From Eggerthellales bacterium (lineage in GTDB: Bacteria > Actinomycetota > Coriobacteriia > Coriobacteriales > Eggerthellaceae): a DNA stretch of 34,395 nucleotides. The stretch's first letter is position 1. Every line of letters begins with the position of its first letter. A program made the translations under genes and the position numbers. Shown piece by piece: positions 4,458-11,911 of the stretch. The notes under the pieces are model-generated. The model was given only the letters and a program-made list of their open reading frames with translations, had not been told where the DNA came from and searched no databases. The DNA lies in assembly GCA_029006935.1 (NCBI GenBank), contig JAQXGX010000032.1, positions 1 through 34,395 on the forward strand, given 5' to 3'.

Positions 4458-5642
4458 ATGCACCGAAAACTCACCATGGCTGTGGCATGCCTTGTTACAG
4501 CATCCCTGATCACCGCCTCCCTGCCCGTTACCGCCCTGGCCGCGTCCCTGCGCGCCACCGCGGAGACCAGCAGTTTCGACTCTAACTACCGGTCCAGCTC
4601 CGAGCAGGTGAAGGTCACCACCAGCGGGACCACCCTTACGGTTTCCTACCGATCCGCCCTGAGGGGCGTGAAGTACCGGGTAGGTCTGCGTCGGGTGGGC
4701 ACCAGCGCCAGCTGGCAGACCAAGAAGGACCTGGTGGCCTCCAACCAGGGCTTCACCGTGAAGCTGAGCTGCGCCAAGCAGTCCGCCGGCACCTTCTACC
4801 TGGTGATTGCCCGAGCCGCCAACTCTTCCCAAGCCAAGGGCTGGGAGTACATCGGCGGGTCCCACGGCTACGCCTTCATCGGCATTCCCGTCAAGGTGTC
4901 AAAGGGCAGGCCCAAGGTGGTGAAGTATCCCACCATCATCAGCCAGAACAAGGAAAAGCGAGCCGCCTCCGCCAAGAAGGGGACCAAGCGCTACGTTTCC
5001 ACGTCGGCAAAGGCCCTTTCGGACATGACCTGGGTCTTCAACGGATACGACGCCAACCTGCCCTCGGAACCCACCCGCAGGTCCTACTTCAAGGCCGTTT
5101 CCAAGGACGTGGTGGGCAGCACCACCAATCCCTACATGAAGATGCGCAAGATCTACTGCTACGTGGCGGGAAACTTCTACTACGACACCCTGGCCTTTGC
5201 CAACCACTCCCGCCAGCACATCAATCCCTACCTGAACCTGAAGAAGTACCGCGGGAACCTGTCCTCCTCAAACAGCCGGAAGACCTCGGGAAAGCGGGCG
5301 CGGGTGGCCACCACCTGCATCGGATACGCATCCATGCTCATCGCCCTTGCGCGGGCCCAGGGCATCCCGGCAAAGCTGGTCTACGGCCATGCCCTGACCT
5401 CCCCCTGGAACACCTGGTCCACGGAAAGCAGCATCAACACCCAGGATCACTGGTGGGCGGAAGTGTATCTGGACGGACGTTGGATGATCATGGACCCCAC
5501 CCGGGGAACCAACGCCAAGTGGAACCGCAGCACCAACACCTGGGAGAAGAAGGCCGCAGGAACGCTGCTGACCTACAACTACTTCGACCCCGGCCTGACC
5601 TTCTTCAGCAACACCCACCGCATCTTCGGCTACTACAGCTAG
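4458..5642 (+). CDS. Secreted transglutaminase-like cysteine protease/transglutaminase
   Basis: 394 residues with a Sec signal peptide: two basic residues, a hydrophobic stretch, and a likely cleavage after ALA near residue 28. The N-terminal half (about 40-150) is beta-rich and Fn3-like. The C-terminal half is a transglutaminase core with the triad Cys287 (ATTCIGYASM), His331 (QDHWWAEVYLDGRW) and Asp346 (MIMDPTRG). Such domains act as cross-linking enzymes or as peptidases/amidases; which applies here cannot be told. ATG 4458 has GGGAG 5 bases upstream. It follows the rpmB terminator directly and I see no clear promoter of its own in the 30 bases between. There is no LPXTG or membrane anchor at the C-terminus, so the product is probably released or held by non-covalent binding. 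The catalytic residues are all present. Confidence 0.85.
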   Translation: MHRKLTMAVACLVTASLITASLPVTALAASLRATAETSSFDSNYRSSSEQVKVTTSGTTLTVSYRSALRGVKYRVGLRRVGTSASWQTKKDLVASNQGFTVKLSCAKQSAGTFYLVIARAANSSQAKGWEYIGGSHGYAFIGIPVKVSKGRPKVVKYPTIISQNKEKRAASAKKGTKRYVSTSAKALSDMTWVFNGYDANLPSEPTRRSYFKAVSKDVVGSTTNPYMKMRKIYCYVAGNFYYDTLAFANHSRQHINPYLNLKKYRGNLSSSNSRKTSGKRARVATTCIGYASMLIALARAQGIPAKLVYGHALTSPWNTWSTESSINTQDHWWAEVYLDGRWMIMDPTRGTNAKWNRSTNTWEKKAAGTLLTYNYFDPGLTFFSNTHRIFGYYS

Positions 5643-9351: not shown

Positions 9352-10062
9352 CTACTCCCGACCCTGCTTTTGGAGAGCGGCAAGACGGGCCTTATCGGCA
9401 GCTGCGGCAATGTCGGCGATGGCCTGCCTCGGATCCTCCGCGCCGAACACGGCGTTGCCGCACACGATCACGTCAGCTCCTTCGGCCGCCACCAGCGGCG
9501 CCGTTTTCAGCCCCATGCCGCCGTCAACCTGGATAAGGGGGCTCGTCCCCGCAGCTCGAGCCAACTCCACCACGGCACGAACCTTCTGATCCGTTCCCTG
9601 GATGTAGCTCTGACCGGAAAAGCCCGGTTCAACGCTCATGACCAGCACCATGTCCAGCGATGCGATAACCGGAGCCAGCGCCGATACCGGGGTCTTGGGC
9701 TTGATGCTGACGCATGCCTTGGACCCCGCTTCATGAATCATGTCCACGGCCTTCCGAAGATCCCCCTCTGCGGTCAGGGCCTCTGCGTGAACGGTCACCA
9801 TGTCAGGCTTGCAGGCCAGGAACCACGGCAGCTGCACCAACGGATTGGTGATCATAAGGTGAACGTCAATGGGCATGTCCGTGTACTTCCGCAGCTGCTT
9901 GAGCACCGGCACCCCCACAGTCAGGTTGGGGGCAAAGTGGCCATCGATCACGTCGAAGTGGATGTATCCGGCACCGCCTTCCCTAATCATTTCGATGTCC
10001 TGGGCAAAGTGCATAAAATCCGCCGAAAGAATAGACGGGGCAATCTTCACTGGCTGGAACAT
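9352..10062 (-). CDS. rpe: Ribulose-phosphate 3-epimerase
   Basis: 236 residues, close to the family's usual 220. It interconverts ribulose 5-phosphate and xylulose 5-phosphate in the pentose phosphate pathway. Motifs: APSILSADF, the metal/catalytic HFDVIDGHFAPNLT, DVHLMI, MSVEPGFSGQSYI and IQVDGGM. The ATG at 10062 directly precedes the conserved N-terminus and has GGAGG 4 bases upstream; the frame stays open a further 75 codons upstream but that stretch has no family match. It is first in a five-gene operon (rpe, cysteine desulfurase, PHP, Nif3-like, zinc ribbon). Confidence 0.95.
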   Translation of the reverse strand: MFQPVKIAPSILSADFMHFAQDIEMIREGGAGYIHFDVIDGHFAPNLTVGVPVLKQLRKYTDMPIDVHLMITNPLVQLPWFLACKPDMVTVHAEALTAEGDLRKAVDMIHEAGSKACVSIKPKTPVSALAPVIASLDMVLVMSVEPGFSGQSYIQGTDQKVRAVVELARAAGTSPLIQVDGGMGLKTAPLVAAEGADVIVCGNAVFGAEDPRQAIADIAAAADKARLAALQKQGRE

Positions 10063-10301: not shown

Positions 10302-10390
10302 TCGTTCGTGTACTGGCCTGCTCTCGATACACGAACGATTTCAGGCTGAAAAGTCGTTCGTGTATCGTTGCCCTTTCAACACACGAACGA
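10302..10390. repeat. Array 1: four 11-bp motifs, alternating orientation, 26-bp period
   Basis: TCGTTCGTGTA at 10302 and 10354 alternates with its reverse complement TACACGAACGA at 10328 and with a one-mismatch copy CACACGAACGA at 10380. Start-to-start distance is exactly 26 bases each time, leaving 15-base spacers of unrelated sequence. The first pair extends to a 14-bp perfect stem (10299-10312 with 10328-10341). Any arm can pair with either neighbour. Confidence 0.9.
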
Positions 10391-10411
10391 GTTTCCTTCC
10401 TCCTGCATGCC

Positions 10412-10456
10412 AAAAAGGGGGCCGAACGGGAACACATCGTCCGTTCGAGCCCTTTT
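10412..10456. terminator. Terminator-like hairpin between the two repeat arrays
   Basis: CGAACGG (10423-10429) pairs with CCGTTCG (10441-10447) around an 11-base loop; past a one-base bulge, further G:C pairs and A:T pairs extend the stem. It ends in TTTT on the + strand and in CCCCCTTTTT on the minus strand, so it could end transcription from either side. Confidence 0.45.
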
Positions 10457-10468
10457 CTGCCACCCGAA

Positions 10469-10557
10469 TCGTTCGTGTACTGGCACACCCCCAATACACG
10501 AACGACTTTCGCACGAATATTCGTTCGTGTATCGCAGCATCGTCAATAAGCGAACGA
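10469..10557. repeat. Array 2: four 11-bp motifs, alternating orientation, 26-bp period
   Basis: A second copy of the array: TCGTTCGTGTA at 10469 and 10521, TACACGAACGA at 10495, and a two-mismatch copy TAAGCGAACGA at 10547, again exactly 26 bases apart. Aligned with array 1, the motif positions and the bases directly beside them match (first unit followed by CTGGC, third by TCG), while most spacer bases differ. Confidence 0.9.
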
Positions 10558-10627: not shown

Positions 10628-10633
10628 TATAAT
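10628..10633 (+). promoter_or_regulatory. -10 element for the DUF6273-like gene
   Basis: A perfect TATAAT lies 55 bases before the ATG at 10688. The -35 region at the right distance (AATAGC, 10605-10610) is a poor match, so an activator may be needed. The last motif of array 2 ends 47 bases upstream of that -35 position. Confidence 0.55.
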
Positions 10634-10687: not shown

Positions 10688-11911
10688 ATGAAACGAAGAA
10701 AGCTCTTGCTTGGCCTGCTGGGCGCCGCCTTGGCAGCAAGCCTGGCTCCGGCGGTGGCCATGGCCGCAACGCCTGCCAATCCCACCATCGACCAGGGCTG
10801 CATCACGCTGACCCAGCCCGTATCTGGCAGCTCCATCAAGATCAGCTGGCTGAAGGATACCGCGGCCACCAAGTACGCCGTGCGTTACAGCCGCAGCTCC
10901 ACCATGAAGGGAGCCAAGTACAAGTACGTAAGCTCCAAGTACACCAGCACCACCATCACCGGGCTGAAGGCCGGCTACAACTATTACTTCCAGGTGCGCG
11001 CCTACGGCAAGACCACCAAAACCACCCCGAAGTACAAGTGGTCCACAGCCCGGCACTGCTCCACCGCCTACAAGGGAAAGGTGAACAGCTACAGCTGGAA
11101 GCAGCTTAAGAGCATCTCCAATAAGATCGCCGCCTGTACCTCCAAGTCCCAAGCCCTGAGCGTAGCCCGCAAGTACTCCCTGATCGGCGCCTCCAAGCGC
11201 CTATCCGGCTTCGAGTACAAGAACGTGAAGATCTACGGGGTGACCTTCAAGGCACAGATCGTGGACTTCTGGCGTGACACCCGCACTACCGGCAAGAAGG
11301 CGGGCATCACCTTCATGCTAAAGGAATGCCCCGATTGCGGCGAGCTGGACAAGGCCGGCGGCTCCAAGTGGTCCACCTCTTCTGCTCGCACCTGGTGCAA
11401 CAACGATCTTTACAAGGCCCTTCCCTCTGACCTGCGCAGCTACGTGTGCTCGGTGAAGAAGATCAGCTGGACCCCTGGTCTTGAGACCGAAACCACCTAT
11501 GACAAGATCAGCATTCCCAGCGTTCCCGAGGTCTGGGGCCTTGCCACTGCTTCCAGCGTGGCTAGCGGCTGGGAAGATCGCCAGATTATGGGCGAATACC
11601 AGTACAAGTACTTCGCCGACGTGAACGTAGGGGTTCGGGCCAAGACCACCCGCTGGTTCCTGGAAGACCTGGACGACGGCAACATCCAGCAGTGGGAGCG
11701 CTCCAGCATTTACACTCCCGTGAGCATGAAGCTGGCTTCCGCCTACTATCTTACCGGCAGCTCTTGCAGCTGGTGGACCCGCGACCTCAGCCTGCTCGAG
11801 GACGGGTTCTACGCAGCCAGCCGCGGCGGAAACATGGACTTCAACAACGTCGTGAAGTCCAACACCAGCTCTTCCATTCCGCCGAGCTATCGTCCCGTCT
11901 TCTGCATCTAA
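10688..11911 (+). CDS. Secreted protein with Fn3-like domain and DUF6273-like C-terminal region
   Basis: 407 residues. A signal peptide (KRRK, hydrophobic core, probable cleavage after AMA near residue 26) is followed by a fibronectin type III-like domain (about 29-115, ending TTITGLKAGYNYYFQVRAYG). The rest resembles DUF6273, a domain of secreted bacterial proteins: STSSARTWCNNDLYKALPS, then WWTRDLS, and the closing PPSYRPVFCI, which corresponds to the usual GVRPA-type end. Function is unknown; no catalytic triad is recognised. The ATG at 10688 has AAGGA 8 bases upstream and leads straight into the signal peptide. It is a single-gene unit with its own TATAAT promoter and terminator. Residues 115-180 resemble no family I know. 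Confidence 0.75.
   Translation: MKRRKLLLGLLGAALAASLAPAVAMAATPANPTIDQGCITLTQPVSGSSIKISWLKDTAATKYAVRYSRSSTMKGAKYKYVSSKYTSTTITGLKAGYNYYFQVRAYGKTTKTTPKYKWSTARHCSTAYKGKVNSYSWKQLKSISNKIAACTSKSQALSVARKYSLIGASKRLSGFEYKNVKIYGVTFKAQIVDFWRDTRTTGKKAGITFMLKECPDCGELDKAGGSKWSTSSARTWCNNDLYKALPSDLRSYVCSVKKISWTPGLETETTYDKISIPSVPEVWGLATASSVASGWEDRQIMGEYQYKYFADVNVGVRAKTTRWFLEDLDDGNIQQWERSSIYTPVSMKLASAYYLTGSSCSWWTRDLSLLEDGFYAASRGGNMDFNNVVKSNTSSSIPPSYRPVFCI

Follow-up and report, generated by a model that had tools for sequence, protein, structure and literature searches.

Two groups of four short sites, alternating in orientation at a constant step, lie between two divergent genes in the window, that is, the 34,395-nucleotide stretch of an Eggerthellales bacterium (Eggerthellaceae) that was analyzed here. 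The question raised by this locus is what such an arrangement is for: a reading of the sequence alone had proposed a cooperative operator for a DNA-binding protein, a mosaic element resembling BIMEs, or RNA hairpins able to pair in two registers.

The locus and its neighboring genes

The eight 11-bp sites are located, to the base, where the sequence-only reading had placed them. Array 1 (10302..10390, plus strand) comprises sites at 10302-10312 (+), 10328-10338 (-), 10354-10364 (+), and 10380-10390 (-), and array 2 (10469..10557, plus strand) comprises sites beginning at 10469 (+), 10495 (-), 10521 (+), and 10547 (-). The 26-bp step and the alternation are exact throughout both arrays, and the final site of each is indeed degenerate, with one mismatch at 10380 and two at 10547. 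At up to two mismatches, the window contains 14 matches to the motif versus 3.1 expected, and 14 or more were reached in 0 of 100 shuffles. Since the spacers of the two arrays have largely diverged, the arrays are not recent duplicates of one another. The 78-bp linker between them (10391..10468) holds a diverged form of the core described below, as well as a different inverted repeat (10408..10462; 22-nt arms, 77% complementary, 11 nt apart).

To the left, rpe, encoding ribulose-phosphate 3-epimerase (9352..10062, minus strand; Pfam PF00834, E = 1e-64), starts 240 bp from the first array. To the right, a gene for a predicted secreted protein containing fn3 and DUF6273 domains (10688..11911, plus strand; PF00041, PF19789) starts 131 bp from the second array, and the arrays are thus flanked by divergent genes. 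The hexamer TATAAT at 10628..10633 (plus strand), 70 bp past the last site, is a tentative candidate for the -10 element of this gene; no full sigma-70 match was found for it. The fn3/DUF6273 protein shares 60% amino acid identity with its copy in the sister species, versus 85-97% for the other genes compared, and a second predicted secreted protein, transglutaminase-like, is encoded at 4458-5642.

Dispersal, constraint, and modular order in the genome

The draft genome of this gut-type actinobacterium (1,786,285 bases in 197 contigs, 98.8% complete) contains 31 exact copies of the 11-bp motif, TCGTTCGTGTA, versus 1 for a reversed pattern control, and 76 matches at one mismatch (mostly YCGTTCGYGTA) versus 28 for the control; the motif is therefore dispersed rather than a local oddity. 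Nearly all copies belong to intergenic, four-site alternating arrays with the exact 26-bp step, termed B arrays here, and the usual B locus has two arrays on either side of a linker of ~90 bp. Arrays occur at about ten places besides the window, all of them intergenic: two four-site arrays are present at seven loci (C32, which is the window, C71, C85, C95, C105, C151, and C183), a single array at C98, C118, and C182, and fragments at C2, C110, and C130. Step and alternation are retained at every other main locus. These counts, together with the shuffling result and the conserved step, refute a chance or decayed simple repeat, which could appeal only to the two degenerate last sites and has a negligible probability.

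Sixteen four-site B arrays were aligned over 89 columns with zero gaps or indels. Mean pairwise identity among them is 92% in the motif columns, compared to 52% in the spacers (minimum, 29%), and 84% is the highest identity between any two spacers. Because the spacers are so divergent on average and even at best, the B arrays are evidently not fresh copies, yet their motif and spacing are intact; with zero indels and the difference between motif and spacer identity, both motif sequence and spacing look selected. It had been proposed that the motif was either under selection or recently copied: the first alternative is favored by the contrast between motif and spacers, and the second is opposed by the limited identity of even the closest spacers.

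The conserved unit is longer than 11 bp. It is a half-site, YCGTTCGYGTAYYG, in which C or T occupies position 8, pyrimidines predominate at positions 12 and 13, and position 14 is G in 62 of 64 cases; CGAAAR is often found 5′ of sites 1 and 2. The unit is this half-site, and a palindrome forms at the B arrays only where two sites are separated by the 26-bp step. The degenerate positions are pyrimidines on the own strand of each site, and at position 13 of facing sites the plus site mostly has C and the minus site T, which would give a recurring C.A mismatch if the pair were folded. No excess of pairing covariation over shuffling was detected in the B arrays in either possible register. Together, these features favor the half-sites being read as duplex DNA by a putative protein, rather than as a stem.

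The same features bear on the proposal that the arrays act at the RNA level, with hairpins formed by inverted pairs ending or attenuating transcripts or stabilizing mRNA ends. The 281-nt region is predicted to fold very strongly (z = -8.7), an outcome that is inevitable for repeats of this kind. Against this stand the conserved C.A mismatch and the missing covariation, which leave hairpins pairing in two registers without support in this species, as well as the location of about a third of the loci, including the window, between divergent genes; moreover, no terminator-like site was found at the arrays and no Rfam match over them. Even allowing for the covarying arms of an analogous system described below, an RNA-level element is unlikely.

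Same-orientation B sites are 52 bp apart. At the seven loci with two arrays, the array-to-array distances are 167 (window), 177, 178, 178, 178, 179, and 188 bp, which, with 10.5 bp per turn, corresponds to 15.9, 16.9-17.05, and 17.9 turns, and the linkers measure 78 (window), 88-90, and 99 bp; the larger changes in linker length therefore amount to about one helical turn. This phasing reflects few independent indel events, since there are only seven full two-array loci and their shared ancestry means that they are not independent. A linker core, GGGGTTTTCGGGCGAAACGGCCC, is present in C85, C95, and C151.

Two further families of arrays share the genome. The motif of family B′, TCGTTCGCACAAYG, has 99 matches at up to two mismatches versus 17, and its canonical layout is + 26 - 26 + 48 - 26 + 26 - (loci C58, C102, C110, C118, C127, C130, C146, C169, C182, and C183). 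Relative to B, the distal half of the motif is changed while the 26-bp step and the core are retained, the core ACRGGGGTTTTCGGGCGAAACGGCCCYGGACCTGCGT between half-arrays being common to both. The motif of family A, TGTCAATTYGGGTGCCGARAGC, has 75 matches versus 0 and forms six-site elements, with plus sites at 0, 52, and 104 and minus sites at 128, 159, and 211, around a near-palindromic center, GCCGARAGCATAATCTCGGC. Its 15 copies show hardly any length change, with steps mainly of 52 bp (loci C16, C43, C85, C98, C118, C144, C151, C152, C153, C156, C169, C183, C188, and C196). A third module, C, consists of GGTTCTGTACGATTCC sites about 60 bp apart. The order of modules is often fixed, as A, 69 bp, B (or B′), and C, in complete or partial copies. 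One A site lies at a contig end (L164:26-48), ~1 kb from an ORF (1014-2039) resembling a phage-type tyrosine recombinase.

The genes next to the arrays are unrelated and mostly of housekeeping function (carB, yeiH, nagA/nanE, a lysR, rplS, aroE, and others). Among gaps with both neighbors visible, an ORF heuristic classified about 7 as divergent, 6 as convergent, and 9 as co-directional, and the arrays are often located at gene ends. This is not the distribution of a transcription factor regulon, with sites upstream of functionally related genes. Of the operator array suggested by the sequence-only reading, cooperative protein binding is consistent with the unvarying motif and the constant step, while an operator for a single pathway does not fit such neighbors. 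The location of the window arrays, with divergent genes on either side and a possible TATAAT downstream, would suit a local operator of rpe and/or the adjacent secreted-protein gene; the presence of the same arrays beside unrelated genes, often at their ends, and the retention of both genes without arrays in the sister species make this very improbable.

Sister species and parallel arrays

Judged by rpe, the nearest named relative of the genome is Coriobacteriia bacterium S22M_St_35 (89% protein identity), followed at 60-69% by records mostly from Eggerthellaceae and other Coriobacteriia. A, B, and B′ are all missing from the same-genus sister: neither the B pair nor an A site was detected in its genome, and no array in a scan of 317 kb of it. 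Three syntenic intergenic gaps inspected in the sister all lack arrays: the rpe/fn3-DUF6273 gap is about 210 bp long versus 626 bp here, with both genes kept, the carB/EamA gap is 197 bp versus about 1.6 kb here, and the third is the yeiH/C39 gap. The B pair is absent from 59 relatives, and its exact pattern had no match among 84,980 other species, a set from which own or very near records were possibly excluded. Single copies lacking the 26-bp step everywhere else, combined with no conservation of the array in close relatives, had been named as the signs of a chance or decayed repeat; the outcome is split, as the step is kept across the genome and the sister has no arrays. Exact insertion points in these array-free gaps are unreadable, since the intergenic flanks of the sister do not align. 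At four-fold sites the two genomes have an identity of 0.51-0.70, close to the value among array spacers (0.52) and uninformative for dating; the arrays may date back roughly to the split from the sister. The sister genome has its own frequent hairpin motif of the GGGCGAAAGCGCC type, mostly in single copies and terminator-like.

A scan of rpe neighborhoods revealed + - + - arrays of an unrelated motif, TCGCCCTARNCCGTAAA, in a more distant relative, Coriobacteriaceae bacterium SIG38. They occur at no fewer than 8 loci with steps near 51/85/51 bp, the middle one being enlarged by 10 bp in one case; the array-to-array distance is 135-136 bp (146 at one locus), and the arrays enclose an asymmetric core, CAAAACCCCAGGTCGCGA. 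In this system covariation of the arms is present (21 double-change cells versus 11.9 by shuffling, 0/500), A6/T6 tracts surround a GC stem in the manner of a bidirectional terminator, and the arrays lie 3′ of a gene end in 8 of 8 cases. These properties, which count in favor of an RNA-level element, make an RNA or terminator role plausible for the SIG38 system or a shared ancestor. In another family member, a third alternating array, TTGCCACATCCTC, has a period of 71, and regularly spaced inverted repeats with GTGGCGGAAATAG units at 61-62 bp are also present (the loci of these arrays are L198:1928-2127 and L201:13223-13442). The SIG38 and TTGCCACATCCTC arrays suggest that the architecture may be more general than its sequence. 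The word AACCCCAGGTC, found in repeat elements of the genome studied here (L037:4785, L039:925, and L163:1215, C module) and in SIG38 cores, occurs singly in the sister (L056:2843 and L059:65), and is possibly a core word shared across species.

Comparison with known repeats and the proposed element

The B arrays resemble the REP/BIME repeats of Enterobacteria, Pseudomonas, and Stenotrophomonas in being dispersed, extragenic, and lineage specific, with regularly spaced, alternating units in mosaic combinations. They differ in that spacing within arrays shows no length variation and modules have a fixed order with a core between arrays; furthermore, the unit is a nonpalindromic half-site rather than an imperfect palindrome with a GTAG/GTGG head, and compensatory palindrome changes are found in SIG38 but not in B. 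A search of the genome, which is 98.8% complete, for the RAYT/IS200-like Y1 transposase (PF01797) gave 0 matches, with 5 of 14 controls positive, so B is not a RAYT-driven REP family. The earlier suggestion of a BIME-like mosaic thus holds for the form of the element (interspersed, extragenic, alternating, and modular) and lacks the hallmark transposase. The array set belongs with the bacterial interspersed repeats, as a variant.

Other systems share individual features with it. The BOX elements of Streptococcus pneumoniae (boxA-boxB-boxC) are modular composite intergenic repeats with modules missing in some copies, much like the A-B-C element, in which, however, each module is a phased array of short inverted sites; the sequences are unrelated as far as known. 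Multisite recombination, partition, and looping complexes (the lambda att core with its arm sites, parC iterons, and looped operators) likewise place a core between helically phased arrays of short sites, although here the binding protein is putative and dozens of copies per genome lie at unrelated loci. MITEs and ERIC-type repeats are small, mobile, multicopy, noncoding intergenic repeats with much inverted symmetry (PMC10969869, PMC2229807). The B arrays are also multicopy, noncoding, intergenic, and inverted; terminal inverted repeats and target duplications were not identified on flanks that do not align, and constraint, in contrast, is concentrated on short sites and their spacing. CRISPR arrays and TIGR-like guide arrays were both rejected, as the sites alternate in orientation and the spacers share a consensus between loci. 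A pattern scan of viral contigs for the exact pair and a distant BLAST search of plasmid and phage records, with a full A-B-C element as query, gave no match, and repeats of this kind were nowhere described for Coriobacteriia in the literature searched.

The main rival is a nonautonomous mobile repeat of the MITE or BIME kind, which would spread as array units recognized in trans by a putative transposase or recombinase, crossover or cleavage taking place in the core while the arrays serve as accessory sites. The multicopy intergenic distribution, the A-B-C order with partial copies, the common core of the subfamilies B and B′, and the empty syntenic gaps of the sister would all be explained in this way, and lineage specificity is typical of REP-type families as well (PMC2817692). 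Indeed, the absence from the sister and the cluster-wide site changes between subfamilies are equally expected of a mobile or gene-converting repeat. Nevertheless, the genome has no Y1/RAYT transposase, terminal repeats and target duplications cannot be defined on flanks that do not align, near-identical recent copies are missing, and motifs are fixed on apparently old copies, contrary to neutral decay after insertion. A mobile repeat is accordingly a real but minority possibility.

The preferred reading, which has about an even chance of being correct, is a BIME-like, RAYT-less modular family of helically phased arrays that would be bound by protein. The element, of which the window contains one copy, is dispersed and intergenic, with a rigid scaffold composed of one or two alternating arrays of half-sites 26 bp apart, center to center, that often flank an asymmetric core, with same-orientation sites near whole helical turns apart. 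From the constraint on motif and spacing, we infer that each double-stranded half-site binds one subunit of a sequence-specific protein; facing pairs and successive pairs would then assemble a cooperative multisubunit complex, and the core would be clamped or looped between the two arrays, which keep helical register over the linker. Because the neighbors are unrelated and the gaps of every orientation, such a complex would most likely act on the chromosome itself, through architecture, insulation, or attachment and partition-like anchoring, instead of on one regulon. The arm covariation in SIG38 is a counterpoint to duplex reading, as it fits a paired strand in that species.

The usual explanations for interspersed bacterial repeats are hairpins or transposition by RAYT. 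In the present genome, no fewer than three families (A, B, and B′) obey one geometric rule: steps are fixed at 26 or 52 bp, indels are almost absent, and the sites hardly vary while the spacers drift. A relative, SIG38, follows a comparable rule with a different motif. The shared geometry, the missing REP-type transposase, and the rule in the relative make the case, in a concrete and testable form, that intergenic repeats of bacteria can have a nucleoprotein function, with a DNA-binding protein evolving alongside them. They also advise caution before arrays of this kind are taken for RNA hairpins or for operators of single genes. A more far-reaching and doubtful proposal, about as probable as the mobile repeat, is a new class of Coriobacteriia chromosomal element, present in at least two lineages, in which species-specific phased half-site arrays around a core are looped or clamped by a fast-evolving protein. 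If true, it would constitute an architectural or anchoring system at many intergenic places, in which motif and protein co-diverge between species and whole systems are gained or lost between sisters.
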